Source: Methylobacterium segetis
Lineage (GTDB): Bacteria; Pseudomonadota; Alphaproteobacteria; Rhizobiales; Beijerinckiaceae
Direction: 5' to 3'
NCBI RefSeq assembly: GCF_004348265.1
Contig: NZ_SMNT01000009.1
Location: forward strand, 1 to 64,000
DNA length: 64,000 nucleotides
Of the stretch, positions 53,751 to 60,757 are shown in pieces. A program made the position numbers and the translations under genes. The notes under the pieces are model-generated. The model had not been told where the DNA came from. It was given only the letters and a program-made list of their open reading frames with translations, and made no database searches. The first letter of the stretch is position 1, and every line of letters begins with the position of its first letter.

Positions 53751-54920
53751 CTACGCCGCCCGGGCGAGCTTCGCCTTGGCCTCGGCGAAGGCCCAGTCGA
53801 GCCAGGGCGTCAGCGCCTCGAGGTCGGCGCGCTCCACCGTGCCGCCGCACCAGATGCGCAGGCCCGCGGGCGCATCGCGGTAGGCGGCGATGTCGTAGGC
53901 GACGCCCTCGCGCTCCAGGGACCCGACGATGTCCTTGGCCACCGCCGCGACCGCCGCGTCGCCCTTGGCGAGCACGTCCGGGTCGGCGATCACGAGACAG
54001 ATGCCCGTGTTCGAGTAGGTGGCGGGATCGACCGCGAGATGGGTGATCCAGGGGGTGCGCGCCACCCACTCATGGATCACGCCGGCATTGGCATCGGCCC
54101 GCGCGTGCAGCGCGTCGAGGCCGCCGATGCTCTCCGCCCAGCGCAGGGTGTCGAGGTAATCCTCGACCGCGAGCATCGAGGGCGTGTTGATCGTGTCGCC
54201 CTTGAAGATGCCCTCGATCAGCTTGCCGCCCTTGGCGAGGCGGAACACCTTCGGCACCGGCCAGGCGGGGGTGTGGCTCTCGATCCGGGCCACGGCGCGG
54301 GGCGACAGGATCAGGATGCCGTGCGCGGCCTCGCCGCCCATCACCTTCTGCCAGGAGAAGGTGACGACATCGAGCTTGTCCCACGCCAGCGGCTGCGCGA
54401 AGGCGGCCGAGGTGGCGTCGCAGATCGTGAGCCCCTCCCGGTCGGCCGCGATCCAGTCGCCGTTCGGCACCTTCACGCCGGCGGCCGTCCCGTTCCAGGT
54501 GAAGATGACGTCGCTGCGCTTCGTGTCGATCTTCGAGAGGTCGGGGAGCACGCCGTAGGGCGTCTGGTGCACGACGGGGCTGATCTTCAGCTCCTTCAGC
54601 GCGTCCGTGACCCACTCGGCCCCGAAGGCCTCCCAGGCCGCGACCTCGACCGGCTTCGGGCCGAGCATCGTCCACATGGCCATCTCGACGGCGCCGGTAT
54701 CGGAGCCCGGCACGATGCCGATGCGATAATCGGCCGGCACGCGCAGGATCCTGCGCGTCAGGTCGATGGCTTCCTGGAGCTTGCCCTTGCCGAGGGGGGA
54801 GCGGTGCGAGCGCCCGAGCGCCGCGTCGGAGAGGGCATCGAGCGTCCAGCCGGGGCGCTTCGTGCAGGGGCCGGACGAGAAATAGGGCACGCGGGGACGC
54901 GTGTCGGGGCGGTTCGTCAT
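53751..54920 (-). CDS. serC: phosphoserine aminotransferase
   Basis: Second step of serine synthesis: PLP-dependent transamination of 3-phosphohydroxypyruvate with glutamate. The 389-aa product has [20 protein letters not shown] (the alphaproteobacterial SerC start), [20 protein letters not shown], and the PLP lysine in [23 protein letters not shown] 54920 ([15 protein letters not shown]) is preferred; ATG 54929 adds MDH. It is preceded by a conserved-type leader RNA and followed by serA, forming a serine biosynthesis operon. Confidence 0.97.
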
Positions 54921-54995
54921 GTGATCCATCCTTGCAGATGGGCGCTCCTCGTTGGGGAGGAGTGTCCCGTCGATCCGCATGATGGAACTTCGTTG
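54921..54995 (-). ncRNA. serC leader RNA (putative cis-regulatory element)
   Basis: On the minus strand, just before serC: TTCGCAACGAAGTTCCATC, then GGACA, the hairpin CTCCTC-CCCAAC-GAGGAG (54962-54945), CGCCCATCTGCAAGGATGG and the start codon nine bases later. CCATC (54981-54985) can pair with GATGG (54926-54930), closing the structure and covering the ribosome-binding region. This layout agrees with the published serC motif, a candidate regulatory RNA found before serC in alphaproteobacteria; the match is by eye and the ligand, if any, is unknown. Confidence 0.7.
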
Positions 54996-55057
54996 CGAAA
55001 GCAAGGTGGGCAAGGGTCGAAGGCCGTCGATCCTCCGTCCGTGTCACATGTGCGCAG

Positions 55058-55798
55058 TCATTCCGTGATCCGCGTCACGCTCCGATTGAGAAGATCCGGC
55101 CGGCGCTCGCGCGTGAGGCGAAGGGCCTCGTCCGCCCGCCAGCGGGCGATCGCCGCGTGGTTGCCGCCGGTGAGTACCTCGGGAATCGTGCGCCCCTCCC
55201 AGGCCCTCGGCCGCGTGTAGTGCGGGTATTCGAGCCGGTCGTTCTCGAAGCTCTCCTCGATGCCGGAGGCCTCCTTGCCCATCACGCCGGGCAGGAGGCG
55301 CACGCAGGCATCGATCAGCACCATCGCGGCGATCTCGCCGCCGGAGAGCACGTAGTCGCCGATCGAGACCTCCTCCAAAGCGCGGCCCGCGATGACCCGC
55401 TCGTCGACGCCCTCGAAGCGGCCGCAGACGACGACGAGGCCGGGGCCGGCGGCGAGCGCCCGCACCCGCGCCTGCGTCAGCGGGCGGCCGCGGGGCGACA
55501 TCAGAAGGCGCGGGCGCGGATCGTCGGGGCCGGCGGCCGAGTCGATCGCGGCGGCGAGCACGTCGCAGCGGAGCACCATGCCGGCGCCGCCGCCCGCGGG
55601 CGTGTCGTCGACGCTGCGGTGGCGGCCGAGCCCGTGCTCGCGGATGTTGCGCGCCGACAGGTCCCAGGCGCCGCGGCCGAGCGCGTCCCCGGAGAGGGAG
55701 ACGCCGAGGGGGCCCGGGAACATCTCCGGGTAGAGCGTCAGCACCGTGGCCTGCCAGGGTGCGGGCGCTCGGGAGGGCAGGGGGTCGTCGGCGGTCAT
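55058..55798 (-). CDS. trmD: tRNA (guanine-N1-)-methyltransferase
   Basis: Methylates G37 of tRNAs reading CCN, CUN and CGG codons; a SPOUT knot enzyme. The 246-aa product has [100 protein letters not shown], and [20 protein letters not shown]. It normally follows rimM directly; here an opposite-strand gene lies between them. rplS does not follow. Confidence 0.97.
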
Positions 55799-55906
55799 GC
55801 GTGGCGTCTTGGCGCGGAGCCCGTCCGGGGGTCAATGGCCGGGACCGCCGCCGACTGTGCGAACGCGCCGAGGCCCCTATTCTCCGAGGCCCCTCAGAGT
55901 GCCCCG

Positions 55907-56650
55907 ATGCCGCGCCCGATCCTTCCCGTTACCCTCCTCATCCTCGGACTCGCCGGGATCGCCTCGGCGGCCGAACCGCTCGGGCCGCCCGGCGCCCCGG
56001 CCTCGCTCTTCCCGAAGCCCGACCGGCCCGTCGCCGAGATCGTGGCGGCGCAATGGGCCCTGGAGAAGGAGCGCGAGAAGGCGGACGAGGTGGGGCAGGT
56101 GGCCCGCCTGATGGGCATCGCGCCGGGGCAGACGATCGCCGATATCGGCGCGGGCAGCGGCTACTACACGCTGCGCCTCTCCGAGCGCGTGGGGCCGCAG
56201 GGCCGGGTCCTCGCCGAGGACGTCACGCCGCGCTACCTCGCGGAGTTGCAGAAGCGGGTGCGCAAGGCGGGATTGCAGAACGTCACGATCGTGCGCGGCG
56301 AGCCGCACGACCCGCGCCTGAAGCCGGCCTCCGTCGACGCGGCCGTGCTCGTGCACATGTATCACGAGATCAGCCAGCCCTACGGCCTGCTTCACAACCT
56401 CGCCGCCGCGATGAGGCCGGGCGGCCGTGTCGGCATCGTGGACGCGGACGACATCCCCTCGCGCCACGGCACGCCGCCCGCGCTGCTGCGCTGCGAACTC
56501 GCCGCCGCGGGCTATCGCGAGACCGGCTTCAGCGTGCTGGAGGGGGGCGTCGGCTACCTCGCGATCTTCGAGGCGCCGGCACCGGAGCAGCGGCCCGACC
56601 CGCGCGCGATCCGGCCCTGCCGGGACGAGGCGAGCCGGGGCGCGAAGTAG
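55907..56650 (+). CDS. exported SAM-dependent methyltransferase-like protein
   Basis: A 247-aa class I methyltransferase fold with an N-terminal Sec signal peptide (MPRPILPVTLLILGLAGIAS, cleavage near ASA-AEP). Motif I is IADIGAGSGYYTLRLSERVG; then LAEDVTPRYLAELQKRVRKA, VDAAVLVHMYHEISQPYGLL, and LAAAMRPGGRVGIVDAD. The signal peptide is odd, since SAM is cytosolic; such proteins are common in proteobacteria but their activity is unproven. It lies on the strand opposite to trmD and rimM, splitting the usual ribosome-biogenesis operon. ATG 55907 was chosen because it yields the signal peptide. Confidence 0.88.
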   Translation: MPRPILPVTLLILGLAGIASAAEPLGPPGAPASLFPKPDRPVAEIVAAQWALEKEREKADEVGQVARLMGIAPGQTIADIGAGSGYYTLRLSERVGPQGRVLAEDVTPRYLAELQKRVRKAGLQNVTIVRGEPHDPRLKPASVDAAVLVHMYHEISQPYGLLHNLAAAMRPGGRVGIVDADDIPSRHGTPPALLRCELAAAGYRETGFSVLEGGVGYLAIFEAPAPEQRPDPRAIRPCRDEASRGAK

Positions 56651-56687
56651 CGACGGTGCGGCGGGGGAGTAGCGACGGCGCGGCGCC

Positions 56688-57374
56688 TCAGCCCGGCTCG
56701 TCCGGAGGCTTCGGGCCGGAAGGGGCGAAGAGGTCGTCCGGCGGGTCGACGGTGATCCGGCCGCCCGGCACGTCGAGCCCGGGCACGAACGCCTTGGTGA
56801 AGGGCAGGAGCGCGCTCGGTCCGCCGGCCTCGGGACGGATCTCCAGGAGGTCGCCCCCGCCGTAATTCGGCACCGCGACCACGGTGCCGAGGGTCTTGCC
56901 CGCGCTGTCGACGACGGACAGGCCGACGAGGTCGGCCGTGAAGAACTCGTCCTCGTCCTCCGCCTGCCCGAGCGTGTCGCGCGGGACGTAGAGGCCGACG
57001 CGGTTCAGCGCCTCGGCGCCGCTGCGGTCGGACACGCCCTTCACGCGGGCGACGAGGAGGTCCGGCGCGGGGCCGGGTGCGGGCCGGGCGCTCACGATCT
57101 CGATGCTGCGGCCATCGGCCGTGCGGAGCGGCCCGTAGGCGGCGATCGCCACCGGGTCGGCCGTGTAGGATTTCAGGCGGATTTCGCCGTTGAGCCCGTG
57201 CGCCCGGCCGAATTCGCCCAGGAGGACGAGGCCGGGATCGGGCGCGGTGGGCGCCGGCCTCGCCGCGGCGCCTTTCGGCCGGGGCGAGGTCTCGGACGCG
57301 GGCGCGAGGCGTGGGGGCCTCGCGCGGCGGGCGCCGTCCCCGCGGGGTGGTTGTCCGCCGGGACGGCGCGCCAT
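56688..57374 (-). CDS. rimM: ribosome maturation factor RimM
   Basis: Assists 30S head assembly and binds S19. The 228-aa product has the RimM N-terminal barrel [20 protein letters not shown] and [15 protein letters not shown], and a PRC-barrel second domain [61 protein letters not shown] low-complexity Arg/Pro-rich N-terminal extension of about 45 residues precedes the fold; a later start may be used. It begins 10 bp after rpsP. Confidence 0.95.
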
Positions 57375-57384
57375 CTCCCGCGCC

Positions 57385-57747
57385 TCAGGCCGCGGCGTCC
57401 TCGGCCGGGGCGGCAGCCGCCTCGGCGCGCTTGGCCGCGCGCTCCTTGGCCTTCTCGCCGGGCTCGGCCTTCTTCGGGTTGTTGCGGGCCGGGCGCTTGG
57501 CGAGGCCGGCGGCGTCGAGGAAGCGCAGGACGCGGTCCGTCGGCTGCGCGCCCTTGGCGAGCCAGGACTGGATCTTGTCGGTCTCGAGCTGCACGCGGGC
57601 CGGATCGTCCTTGGCCTTCATGGGATCGTACACGCCGACCTTATCGATGAAGCGGCCGTCGCGGGGGGCGCGGGCGTCGGCGACGACGATGCGGTAGTAG
57701 GGGCGCTTCTTGGCGCCGCCGCGGGTGAGACGGATCTTGAGGGACAT
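57385..57747 (-). CDS. rpsP: 30S ribosomal protein S16
   Basis: A 120-aa S16: [80 protein letters not shown]. The usual core of about 80 residues is followed by a Lys/Ala/Glu-rich tail ending in APAEDAAA, common in alphaproteobacteria. AGGAG lies at the right distance from the ATG. It lies 105 bp after ffh across an inverted repeat. Confidence 0.98.
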
Positions 57748-57782
57748 GCTTTCAACTCCTGAACGTGTACGTGGTCTGGTTA

Positions 57783-57854
57783 GAGCGAATAGTGAGTAGG
57801 GAGTAGCGAAGAGAGCGGAAACCCTGTTCGCTATTCGCTACCCTCTATTCGCTC
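57783..57854. repeat. 28-bp-arm inverted repeat built of 7-bp units between ffh and rpsP
   Basis: The left arm (57783-57810, GAGCGAATAGTGAGTAGGGA...) and the reverse complement of the right arm (57827-57854, GAGCGAATAGAGGGTAGCGA...) agree at 24 of 28 positions, with a 16-nt loop. Each arm is itself made of degenerate heptamers of the type TAGCGAA/TAGNGAN repeated four times. The right arm overlaps the ffh stop codon. GC content is far below the surroundings. Confidence 0.8.
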
Positions 57855-59406
57855 ACTTCTTCTTCCCGAACGGGAACCCGCCGAGGCCGGGAAGTCCCGG
57901 CACCTTCGGCCCGCCGAGCCCCGGAAGGCTCGGCATCTTTCCGCCACCCATTCCGGGCGGCATCGGCGGCAGCTTGCCGCCGAACTGCTTCTCGATCTGC
58001 GCGATCTGTTCCGGCGTCGGCTCGGGCATGCCCGGGGGCATGCCGCCCGGCATCCCGCCGCCGCCGAGGCCAAACATGTTGCCCAGAGCCTGCCCGATTC
58101 CCCGCTTGCCCGAGCCCATCGCCTTCATCATGTCGGCCATGGTCCGGTGCATCTTGAGGAGCTTGTTGATCTCCTCGACCTTCACGCCGGCGCCGGCGGC
58201 GATGCGCTTCTTGCGGGAGTTCTTGAGGAGATCGGGGTTCTTGCGCTCCTGCGGCGTCATCGAGGAGATGATCGCCCGCTGGCGCCTGAACATCTTCTCG
58301 TCGAGATTCGCGCCCTCGACCTGCTTCTTGATCTGGCCCATGCCCGGCAGCATGCCCATCAGGCCGCCGATGCCGCCCATCTTCTCCATCTGCCCGAGCT
58401 GCATCGACAAGTCCTCGAGATCGAACTTGCCCTTGCGCATCTTCTCGGCGGTGCGCATCGCCTGCTCGGCGTCGATCGTCTCCGCCGCCTTCTCGACCAG
58501 GGAGACGATGTCGCCCATGCCGAGGATGCGGTTGGCCACGCGCGCCGGGTGAAACTCCTCCAGCGCGTCGACCTTCTCGCCGGTGCCGACGAGCTTGATC
58601 GGCTTGCCCGTGACCGCGCGCAGGGAGAGCGCCGCGCCGCCGCGGGAATCGCCGTCCATGCGGGTGAGCACGATGCCGGTGACGCCGAGGCGCTGGTCGA
58701 AGGCGCGGGCGGTGTTGACCGCGTCCTGGCCGGTCAGCGCATCGGCGACGAGGAGCACCTCGTGGGGCCGCGTCGCCGCCTTCACCTCGGCGGCCTCGGC
58801 CATCAGGGCCTCGTCGACCGTGGTGCGGCCGGCGGTGTCGAGCATCACCACGTCGAAGCCGCCGAGGCGGGCCGCGTCCATGGCGCGCTTGGCGATCTGC
58901 ACCGCGGACTGGCCGGCGACGATCGGCAGGCTCTCGACGCCGACCTGACCCGCCAGAACGGCGAGCTGCTCCATGGCGGCCGGGCGCCGGGTGTCGAGGG
59001 AGGCGAGCAGGACGCGGCGGCGCTCGCGCTCGGTCAGGCGGCGGGCGATCTTGGCGGTGGTGGTCGTCTTGCCGGAGCCCTGGAGGCCCACCATCAGGAT
59101 GGCGACGGGGGCGGGGGCGTTGAGGTCGACCACCTCGGCCTGATCGCCCAGCATCGCCACGAGCTCGTCGTTGACGATCTTGACGACCATCTGGCCGGGC
59201 GTGATCGACTTGAGCACGGTGGCGCCCACCGCCTTCTCGCGCACCCGGTCGGTGAAGCCGCGCACCACCTCCAGCGCCACATCGGCCTCGAGCAGCGCGC
59301 GGCGCACCTCCCGCATGGCGGCGGTGACGTCGGCCTCGGTCAGCGCGCCGCGGCGCGTCAGCCCCGAGAGAATGCCGGAGAGGCGATCGGACAGGCCTTC
59401 GAACAT
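57853..59406 (-). CDS. ffh: signal recognition particle protein Ffh
   Basis: The GTPase that targets nascent membrane proteins with 4.5S RNA. The 517-aa product has the N domain (MFEGLSDRLSGILSGLTRRG), G domain with LMVGLQGSGKTTTTAKIARR, DTRRPAAMEQL, VMLDTAGRTTVDEALMAE, and TRMDGDSRGGAALS, and the Met-rich M domain (KGKFDLEDLSMQLGQMEKMG, RQRAIISSMTPQERKNPDLL, SRKKRIAAGAGVKVEEINKL). A Gly/Pro/Met-rich tail ends in KKK. ATG 59406 is the family start. It is the first gene of ffh-rpsP-rimM. Confidence 0.98.
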   Translation of the reverse strand: MFEGLSDRLSGILSGLTRRGALTEADVTAAMREVRRALLEADVALEVVRGFTDRVREKAVGATVLKSITPGQMVVKIVNDELVAMLGDQAEVVDLNAPAPVAILMVGLQGSGKTTTTAKIARRLTERERRRVLLASLDTRRPAAMEQLAVLAGQVGVESLPIVAGQSAVQIAKRAMDAARLGGFDVVMLDTAGRTTVDEALMAEAAEVKAATRPHEVLLVADALTGQDAVNTARAFDQRLGVTGIVLTRMDGDSRGGAALSLRAVTGKPIKLVGTGEKVDALEEFHPARVANRILGMGDIVSLVEKAAETIDAEQAMRTAEKMRKGKFDLEDLSMQLGQMEKMGGIGGLMGMLPGMGQIKKQVEGANLDEKMFRRQRAIISSMTPQERKNPDLLKNSRKKRIAAGAGVKVEEINKLLKMHRTMADMMKAMGSGKRGIGQALGNMFGLGGGGMPGGMPPGMPEPTPEQIAQIEKQFGGKLPPMPPGMGGGKMPSLPGLGGPKVPGLPGLGGFPFGKKK

Positions 59407-59647: not shown

Positions 59648-59912
59648 GGCTTGGCACACCGGGGCAGGACGCGCTTCTTCCAACACGGAACACGCCCGAG
59701 GGCGCGGACGCGCTGTCGGGCGTTGACCTCCGGCCTCTCGGGCCGGTCGGCGTTCAGGTTGACGTCCATGCGTCGGATCGGGAGCGCGGGCCTTAGGCGG
59801 GCGTGGCCGAAATGTCAAATTCCCGGTTCGGACCGGGAAGGCTCCGTTAAGCTTTACGGTTCATTAAGCATGATCTGGTCGGATGGACCTGAGATCGCAA
59901 GGACGCCCGCAG

Positions 59913-60392
59913 ATGTCGGAACCCGCCCGTCAGTACCCGTCGCACGAGAGCGGCCGCCCGGCTCCCGGCCCCTTGCGCGACTGGCTCGCCGCGATGAAGG
60001 CCCACACCCCCCCGGTGCCGGAGCGGCCCGCGACGGTGCGGCAAGAGGCGCCCCGCGCAGCCGAGCCGCAGCAGAGCTGGGCCCCGCGCCTCGTTCCCGG
60101 CAACGCGGCGCAGGCCGAGCGCGCGCCGGCCGGACCGGCCCGCGCCGGAATGGGCACGGCGGACGGCGAGGACATGTCGGAGCTGATGGCCGAGAACCTG
60201 ATGCTCAAGGCCAAGCTGCGGATCGAGCAGGACCGCTACGCCGAGCTTCAGGCCATGCTGGCCCAGGAGATCCGCGACCTGCGCAAACACGTGCAGGACG
60301 AGATGAGCGCGCTGGAGAGCGTGCGCGAGGAGCGCGACCTCTGGCAGGCGCGGGCCGAGGCCCTGGCCCAGCCGCTGTTCCAGAAGCGCTGA
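59913..60392 (+). CDS. hypothetical coiled-coil protein
   Basis: A 159-aa cytoplasmic protein. The N-terminal 90 residues are Pro/Ala/Arg-rich and probably disordered; the C-terminal part (MSELMAENLMLKAKLRIEQD, RYAELQAMLAQEIRDLRKHV, QDEMSALESVREERDLWQAR) is a continuous heptad-containing coiled coil. No family recognised. ATG 59913 has AAGGA about nine bases upstream; an ATG at 59883 has none. Ends before a bidirectional terminator. Confidence 0.82.
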   Translation: MSEPARQYPSHESGRPAPGPLRDWLAAMKAHTPPVPERPATVRQEAPRAAEPQQSWAPRLVPGNAAQAERAPAGPARAGMGTADGEDMSELMAENLMLKAKLRIEQDRYAELQAMLAQEIRDLRKHVQDEMSALESVREERDLWQARAEALAQPLFQKR

Positions 60393-60419
60393 GACCCGCC
60401 GCAGGCACCCGGAATGCCG

Positions 60420-60445
60420 AAGGGCCGCCCCAAGGGGCGGCCCTT
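60420..60445. terminator. bidirectional intrinsic terminator
   Basis: AAGGGCCGCCCC (60420-60431), loop AA, GGGGCGGCCCTT (60434-60445), a perfect 12-bp stem. It ends the coiled-coil gene on the plus strand and would also end a short minus-strand transcript that carries the mini-ORF at 60495-60566. Confidence 0.82.
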
Positions 60446-60494
60446 CCATTGCCGAACCGCGGTCCGGCCGAAACTGTCTCGCGTCCCTGACGCT

Positions 60495-60566
60495 TTACGC
60501 GAAAGCGCCGGAGGCGACGGTCCAGGTCCGGAGAGCCGACGACCGCGGCTGATGACAATGAGACAC
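60495..60566 (-). CDS. 23-codon mini-ORF with near-perfect Shine-Dalgarno
   Basis: GTG 60566 opens VSHCHQPRSSALRTWTVASG and then AFA followed by TAA. The start is preceded by AAAGGAGGTGATCCA with seven bases between AGGAGG and GTG. The peptide has one Cys and two His (HCH) and a basic middle. On the minus strand there is no gene between it and the terminator at 60420-60445, so it would be made from a short independent transcript. It is too short for coding statistics; the support is the ribosome site and its spacing. The remainder of 60446-60757 shows no gene. Confidence 0.6.
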   Translation of the reverse strand: MSHCHQPRSSALRTWTVASGAFA

Positions 60567-60582
60567 TGGATCACCTCCTTTC
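60567..60582 (-). promoter_or_regulatory. extended Shine-Dalgarno complementary to the 16S rRNA 3' end
   Basis: GAAAGGAGGTGATCCA on the minus strand is complementary to the 3' tail of 16S rRNA (GGATCACCTCCTTTC) along its whole length. Most genes in this window have four to six matching bases. Such a long match normally marks either very high initiation or a ribosome-trapping leader. Confidence 0.75.
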
Positions 60583-60757
60583 GTTAGTTGCGGGAAACCC
60601 AAGGTAGGAAACCGCACGCCGGATGGGAAGGGGCTTGGCTGCGCCCTCTCGCCGCTGCCCTCCCGGCGCTGGCCAGCATCGGCGGGGCGCATTAAGGAGG
60701 GCGGCCCCTCTTCCGGTCCGTCGCGGCGGCCGGAAGCTCGAAGCTCGCGGTCCCCCC

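Follow-up and report, generated by a model that had tools for sequence, protein, structure and literature searches.

The stretch of Methylobacterium segetis DNA analysed here, positions 1 to 64,000 of contig NZ_SMNT01000009.1 and referred to as the window, carries on its minus strand a small RNA element of about 170 nt (60421..60590), which is recognised as Rfam family RF01867 (CC2171). Its 5' part contains an extended Shine-Dalgarno (SD) sequence, GAAAGGAGGTGATCCA, at 60567..60582, directly followed by a GTG start codon (60566-60564) and an open reading frame (ORF) of 23 codons at 60495..60566, which reads VSHCHQPRSSALRTWTVASGAFA and closes with a TAA ending at 60495. The extended SD is the exact complement of the 16S rRNA 3' tail of the genus over 16 bases, or 17 when the G of the GTG is counted, just as the earlier note had placed and described it. 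The tail, CGGCTGGATCACCTCCTTTCTAAGGAT, was taken from other genomes of the genus (three copies in two genomes), because the own assembly was searched for a 16S gene and holds none that is recognisable. Within the window the exact 16-mer has a single site, and sites with up to three mismatches number two, against a mean of 0.39 in shuffled sequence; in the own genome, GAAAGGAGGTGATC has one exact site and one site with a single mismatch. The 16-base complement is no chance match.

The 3' hairpin of the element begins 48 bases beyond the stop codon and forms a perfect 13-base inverted repeat (60419..60446, minus; arms 60419-60431 and 60434-60446, 100% complementary). It is a probable terminator, with a U-tract that is weak in this genome. 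Of the bidirectional terminator that had been proposed about 50 bp past the stop, the hairpin is real, but it carries no real U-tract on either strand and was not called by the terminator scan. On the 5' side, a putative promoter, CTTCCC and CTACCT with 17 nt between them, lies at 60601..60630 (minus). Similar CTTnnC / CCTACCTT sequences are seen by eye in the sequence listing upstream of many genus copies, and the scan for the sigma-70 consensus made no call at the locus. Just ahead of the SD (-10 to -5 before AAGGAGG), relatives share a CAACAA-like stretch, with an A at -9 in 142 of 162 sequences, which could mark the transcript start.

Upstream, and divergent from the element, lies a Rieske oxygenase-like gene (Pfam Rieske). 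Downstream, no minus-strand gene directly follows, in agreement with the earlier note; the convergent plus-strand ORF ends at 60392, and the convergent gene encodes a 169-residue protein with no Pfam match. These two flanking genes were found at 22 and 23 of the 31 genus loci searched, the own locus included. Further along the minus strand, at 55058-59406, the translation-related genes ffh, rpsP (S16), rimM and trmD stand in a row, on the same strand as the element and with the convergent gene in between. Two other Rfam families were observed in this region, namely the 'ffh' sRNA RF01793, just upstream of ffh (59684-59737, minus; 55.1 bits), and the serC leader RF00517 (54921-54972, minus; 64.3 bits), near the start of an ORF at 53751-55013 that by eye is aminotransferase-like.

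The assignment of the element to RF01867 rests on a cmscan match at 60590-60421 (minus) of 102.5 bits and E 2.7e-20, which covers the full model (1-159 of 159), lies above the gathering score of 75 bits and runs on through the 3' hairpin. The family is present in 59/59 genomes of the genus (58 above the cut-off) and in 85 of 385 genomes sampled from the class (14 above the cut-off), the own genome being included in both counts. The exact extended SD followed by a start codon occurs in 76/385 class genomes. In a sample of the phylum, it is found in 46 of 86 alphaproteobacterial genomes versus 0/213 of the other Pseudomonadota, and a pattern shortened by one base, which is fair to 16S tails with different ends, in 49/86 versus 8/213. 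A near-identical SD pattern is carried by 68 of 150 genomes of the order, with one copy each, and the reversed SD pattern gave no matches in the class, phylum and order samples.

Small mRNAs of this type are not new. Hahn et al. in 2017 (RNA Biol 14:1353) reportedly described rreB in Bradyrhizobium (14 codons) and rreR in Rhodobacter/Roseobacter (18 codons) as extended-SD small mRNAs, a class said to be recognised by a complement of at least 16 nt to the 16S 3' end directly 5' of a small ORF, and by a small monocistronic transcript with its own terminator. The rreB RNA is said to bind and co-sediment with the 30S subunit strongly, to be translated weakly, and to be stabilised when it lacks its start codon. 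Searching public genomes for the exact SD pattern gave at least 119 loci, and among those listed are Bradyrhizobium ORFs of 14 codons and Rhodobacterales ORFs of 18, which presumably correspond to rreB and rreR. The window locus has the tail complement of at least 16 nt before a small ORF, as well as a perfect 3' hairpin, and the promoter and terminator scans were negative; the 14-residue peptide of the Bradyrhizobium-type loci, VSxxKRCHLAGIAR, is replaced in the window by VSHCHQPRSSALRTWTVASGAFA. By these features, the window locus fits the rreB/rreR class of Alphaproteobacteria. The overlooked genetic element of the earlier note is thus conserved and was indeed missed by gene finding, yet it is of no new kind, because it matches RF01867 and fits the rreB/rreR type already published in 2017. 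The locus itself is no discovery, but a member of a known and unexplained class. As a side observation, an extended SD also stands before longer ORFs beginning MSHG at two loci, L148 and L187 (59 and 56 codons, hydrophobic N-terminus), which are perhaps ordinary genes using the same signal. For Mesorhizobium huakuii, a published table gives sequencing coordinates for the RF01867 locus, whereas other loci carry the mark 'no' (PMC5596092, Table 1).

The extended SD and the frame behind it both appear to be kept by selection. For the SD, only loci selected by RF01867 were considered, because the loci of the scan had been chosen by their exact SD. Among 99 such loci (59 plus 40, without the lowest-scoring loci of the class and some of those of the genus), the SD is clear in 98 and a perfect 15-mer in 66, where the best 15-mer was taken per locus and the RF01867 model itself scores the SD sequence. 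The 98 clear SDs contain 37 substitutions, and 29 of these stay pairable with the 16S tail as G-U, by changes from A to G at two places and from C to U at one; the other eight include five at one end of the duplex and two at the opposite end. Complementarity stops at the tail, as the base preceding the block is A in 19/162. The frame was followed in 180 unique sequences, drawn from 214 with enough DNA, of which 191 have Ser at codon 2 and 23 were excluded for that codon. In 178 of the 180 relatives, the frame meets its first stop at codon 13-36, whereas the other two frames have a stop there in 72/180 and 60/180 and shuffled sequences in 64 on average (maximum 82); therefore the frame is kept. 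All three stop codons are used (TGA 92, TAA 54, TAG 34). The earlier note had staked its reading in part on the conservation of SD, start codon and frame in relatives, and this conservation is found (98/99 SDs, 178/180 frames).

Two other readings of the tail complement were tried and set aside. That the minus strand holds what is left of a 16S gene was rejected, as the match ends after the tail complement and the sequence beyond is RF01867, not rRNA. A guide for pre-16S processing is disfavoured by the base before GAAAGG, which lies opposite the next 16S base (U) and is rarely the A that would pair with it.

One rival explanation is that the RNA titrates 30S subunits as a non-coding trap, with an ORF that is incidental. 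The full-length tail complement with its G-U compensation is consistent with a trap, and so is the reported behaviour of rreB, with its strong 30S binding and weak translation. The predicted fold of the window RNA (-84.6 kcal/mol, z -3.23) points the same way, in that the start codon is single-stranded and the SD is at most in a weak hairpin of 3 bp, while codon 3 onward lies within one long hairpin adjoining the terminator. However, a pure trap needs no stop codon, and titration leaves unexplained a frame that is open in nearly all relatives and closed by any of the three stops. There is usually one copy per genome, so that titration would need very high expression. We consider a trap unlikely.

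Inside the ORF, at codons 14-19 (60510..60526, minus), lies a segment, CCTGGACCGTCGCCTCC, that mimics the 16S tail and may act as an internal anti-SD, as indicated by forced folds and by nucleotide-level conservation in relatives. In the SH-type RNAs (lineage groups are set by peptide pattern, and their membership varies slightly between analyses, Rhodobacterales counting 13 or 15), the mimic is typically CCUGGAUC-GUC-GCCUCC, starting at +38 to +41, and in the window it is CCUGGACC-GUC-GCCUCC from +41. The strongest SD-complementary site lies inside the ORF in 63/70 SH-type RNAs, and in 46 of the 70 it ranks in the top tenth of shuffles. Across lineages, 169 RNAs qualified for analysis, of which 168 have a recognisable terminator; the window RNA failed the terminator finder, lies outside the sets of 168 RNAs and 106 representatives and those for accessibility and the mimic, and was folded separately. 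Among the 106 representatives, 33 reach p 0.05 or less for the mimic against 5.3 expected, and the true downstream sequence beats its own reversal (Wilcoxon 7e-12), the relatedness of the sequences inflating these and all other p-values. Shuffling the SD rather than the downstream part gives a weaker result, with 18/106 significant. The arrangement also differs between lineages. Bradyrhizobium RNAs have the SD core predicted paired inside the ORF at +24 to +27 in 13/13 (GAGGUGA with UCACCUC in the folds listed), Rhodobacterales RNAs are predicted to pair the SD with a CCUCC-like site in the 3' UTR (14/14 listed of 20), and sphingomonads show no tail mimic (3/24 in the top tenth, 0/9 at 0.05).

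Could the mimic act on other RNAs? Cuckoo-type anti-SD sRNAs carry CCUCC motifs in exposed loops and act in trans, and a trans-acting sRNA might likewise direct its CCUCC-containing internal segment at SDs in other mRNAs, and be switched off through the SD and ORF that it carries itself. The mimic could indeed pair with SDs in trans, and Rfam names the family a Caulobacter sRNA. Against this, the mimic matches its own SD, including the GAUCC part that is absent from ordinary SDs, and a role in trans seems quite improbable to us.

A third rival is the functional micropeptide MSHCHQPRSSALRTWTVASGAFA, with the RNA features merely tuning its expression; the earlier note had thought of a highly translated one. 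The conservation of start, stop and frame is what a micropeptide would need, and the mimic codons spell an apparent peptide motif, T-W-(I/T)-V-(A/T)-S, of which a TW..AS-like form recurs in several genera. However, the recurring motif is conserved at synonymous sites, beyond what a peptide requires. Among 70 unique ORFs that have Trp at codon 10-19, whose rows are related, the Ser four codons past Trp is TCC or TCT in 41/45 (30% expected from the flanking genes), the Ala/Thr three codons past Trp is GCC or ACC in 51/56 (56% expected), with Methylobacterium genes only as the background, and the Thr/Ala preceding Trp is ACC or GCC in 55/57. This codon choice implies that nucleotides rather than residues are kept, and it suggests that the TW(I/T)V(A/T)S motif is conserved as a mimic of the 16S tail, able to cage its own SD. 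The comparative data would thus explain the conserved look of the peptide, the motif being the internal anti-SD.

Nor is selection on amino acids detectable. With equal-length ORFs only within each set and codon 1 excluded, the pooled dN/dS of six lineage sets is 1.03, with 397/500 shuffles at or below it. The individual values are 0.79 and 1.69 in Methylobacterium, 0.89 in Rhodobacterales, 1.34 in sphingomonads, 1.28 in the Mesorhizobium type and 1.65 in Bradyrhizobium, and 0/6 sets beat column shuffles for purifying selection. Power is low in three of the six, which hold few sequences or hardly vary (7, 7 and 8 sequences), so that the null result is carried chiefly by the 23-codon Methylobacterium set (18), the Rhodobacterales (20) and the sphingomonads (23); two wider SH-type sets give 1.08 and 1.01. 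The method itself succeeds on windows of 22 codons from the two flanking genes, in 15/15 and 3/4, and 18/19 of these control windows stand at 2/200 shuffles or fewer. Additionally, the peptides are wholly different between lineages. It therefore appears, from comparison of sequences, that the openness of the frame rather than a protein sequence is kept by selection, and a functional micropeptide is very unlikely.

The neighbourhood bears on a last alternative. Neighbours in other lineages differ from those of the window, and none of the 22 largest neighbour clusters listed spans lineages, for which reason the element is treated as autonomous. The earlier note had also raised a leader peptide that has lost its host gene. 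Such an orphan leader or attenuator would account for a short ORF followed by hairpins and for the related gene that stands just after the element at 11 SH/VSD-type loci (same strand in 9/11 predicted ORFs), but the clusters listed contain no same-strand downstream gene common to lineages, the gene in the window is convergent, the relatives listed have the element closed by a hairpin of its own, and independent loss in so many lineages is implausible, which leaves this explanation scarcely credible. Separately, at 15 Rhodobacterales-type loci among L060-L239, the ORF is preceded by a same-strand gene that looks like one for a membrane protein and ends about 70 bases upstream of it; we take this gene to resemble a queuosine-precursor transporter.

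A second structural feature joins the ORF to the 3' end. In P1, a long-range helix, codons 3-5 pair with bases just before the terminator, in several lineages and with compensatory changes. In the window, the 5' arm is CATTGTC (60554..60560, minus) and the 3' arm GGCAATG (60447..60453, minus), which abuts the terminator hairpin; both arms are seen in the window fold and by covariation, the window lying outside the arm-swap set. The alignment A1 for covariation started from 70 SH-type RNAs, reduced to 66 (four with an odd terminator position) and to 55 (11 Methylobacterium copies out), and makes 56 with the window. Over these 56, the seven pairs are formed in 92.4% of cells and five of the seven show double changes, a result reached by 0/500 shuffles; sliding the partner gives 22-68% pairing. 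Among the 168 RNAs, own arms score 15.1 against at most 13.1 for swapped arms (300 permutations), and the arm swap gives 0/500 both on the 106 representatives and on 52 distinct arms. The predicted pairing probability of P1 exceeds 0.5 in 86/168 real versus 17/168 shuffled RNAs, by group in 54/70 SH-type, 15/22 MSS-type, 11/24 sphingomonad and 6/26 other RNAs, and in 0/13 Bradyrhizobium and 0/13 Rhodobacterales RNAs. P1 is therefore not universal. Applied to alignment A1, RNAalifold did not choose P1; it gave the terminator and, within the SD, a helix of 3 bp, and nothing more.

An open and a closed state can be predicted for the SD, and in the window their energies are close. With ends slightly different from those of the -84.6 kcal/mol fold, the minimum free energy is -86.6 kcal/mol. 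Forcing the SD open then costs 2.7 kcal/mol and forcing it onto the mimic 4.2, which gives -83.9 kcal/mol for the SD-open state and -82.4 for the SD:anti-SD state, 1.5 kcal/mol apart where energies of this kind are uncertain by more than 1.5. A simple CCUCC-like site is present in 52 of the 70 SH-type RNAs, by a site search that misses the pairing site of Bradyrhizobium. In these 52, the closed form is disfavoured by a median of 5.6 kcal/mol, and in 15 of them it is the favoured one. Real RNAs are predicted to expose the SD hardly more than shuffled ones do (mean accessibility 0.47 versus 0.42). The closeness of the two states in the window is the reason for which a switch is proposed.

The reading that we favour, and to which we give even chances, is a stand-alone, self-caged small mRNA that responds to ribosomes and requires the act of translation, not the peptide. 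Its 5' end is complementary to the whole 16S tail, and if it is transcribed in this species, free 30S subunits should therefore bind it very tightly. The tail mimic inside the ORF would cage the SD, and in the alternative fold with P1 the SD and start codon would be largely free while codons 3 onward are locked. On the simplest account, a free 30S and the internal mimic would be competitors for the SD, and a ribosome that goes on to translate would run through both the 5' arm of P1 and the mimic. The RNA may then be moved between its states by the binding of a ribosome and by translation of the short frame, with the peptide as a by-product, so that the supply of ribosomes would set the state of the RNA. 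As a consequence, the state and lifetime of the RNA could report or buffer the availability of 30S subunits. One published observation counts against a mechanism with a translated ORF. A ribosome-profiling study of Caulobacter states that ncRNA regions, which may include CC2171, are not translated (PMC4117421). The same study gives an SD at only about a quarter of Caulobacter genes (PMC4117421).

Extended to the class, the self-caged mRNA would be an alphaproteobacterial sensor of free 30S, built from a full-tail SD and an internal copy of the tail, in which the frame is kept for the translating act that resets the switch. This broader proposal is possible, though we lean against it. If it were true, ribosomes would be counted by an RNA whose ORF is indifferent to sequence, a riboregulator of a new type. 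An RNA responding to free 30S would also offer direct access to the way in which gene expression is matched to the supply of ribosomes in Alphaproteobacteria. What we infer beyond the known class is that the frame is probably kept for translation and not for a peptide, and that the peptide-like motif is likely a mimic of the rRNA tail; the covarying P1 pairing of several lineages also goes beyond what is familiar from the class. In the literature covered, mainly titles and the starts of abstracts with a few papers in more depth, there is no report of an internal anti-SD or of absent peptide selection.

Compared with known systems, the Rfam sRNA family and the extended-SD small mRNAs, which have two separate descriptions, appear to be one class. 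The window matches the whole RF01867 model, and its 5' block CGAAAGGAGGUGAUCCAGUGUCUCAU is identical letter for letter; Rfam describes an sRNA gene, whereas our reading of the block is an SD and a start codon that lead into a frame selected to stay open. With rreB and rreR as reportedly described, the locus shares an extended SD against the 16S tail, a GTG or ATG, a tiny ORF and probably a small monocistronic RNA, and it differs in its 23 codons and unrelated peptide. The predicted partner of the SD also differs, being codons 14-19 in the window, whereas Bradyrhizobium uses codons 7-9 and Rhodobacterales a site in the 3' UTR. The extended SD sites of Staphylococcus aureus are alike in a longer-than-usual SD:anti-SD pairing in initiation, small ORFs included (PMC13009471). 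There they are a general feature of many mRNAs (PMC13009471), whereas here there is usually one dedicated, self-complementary RNA per genome.
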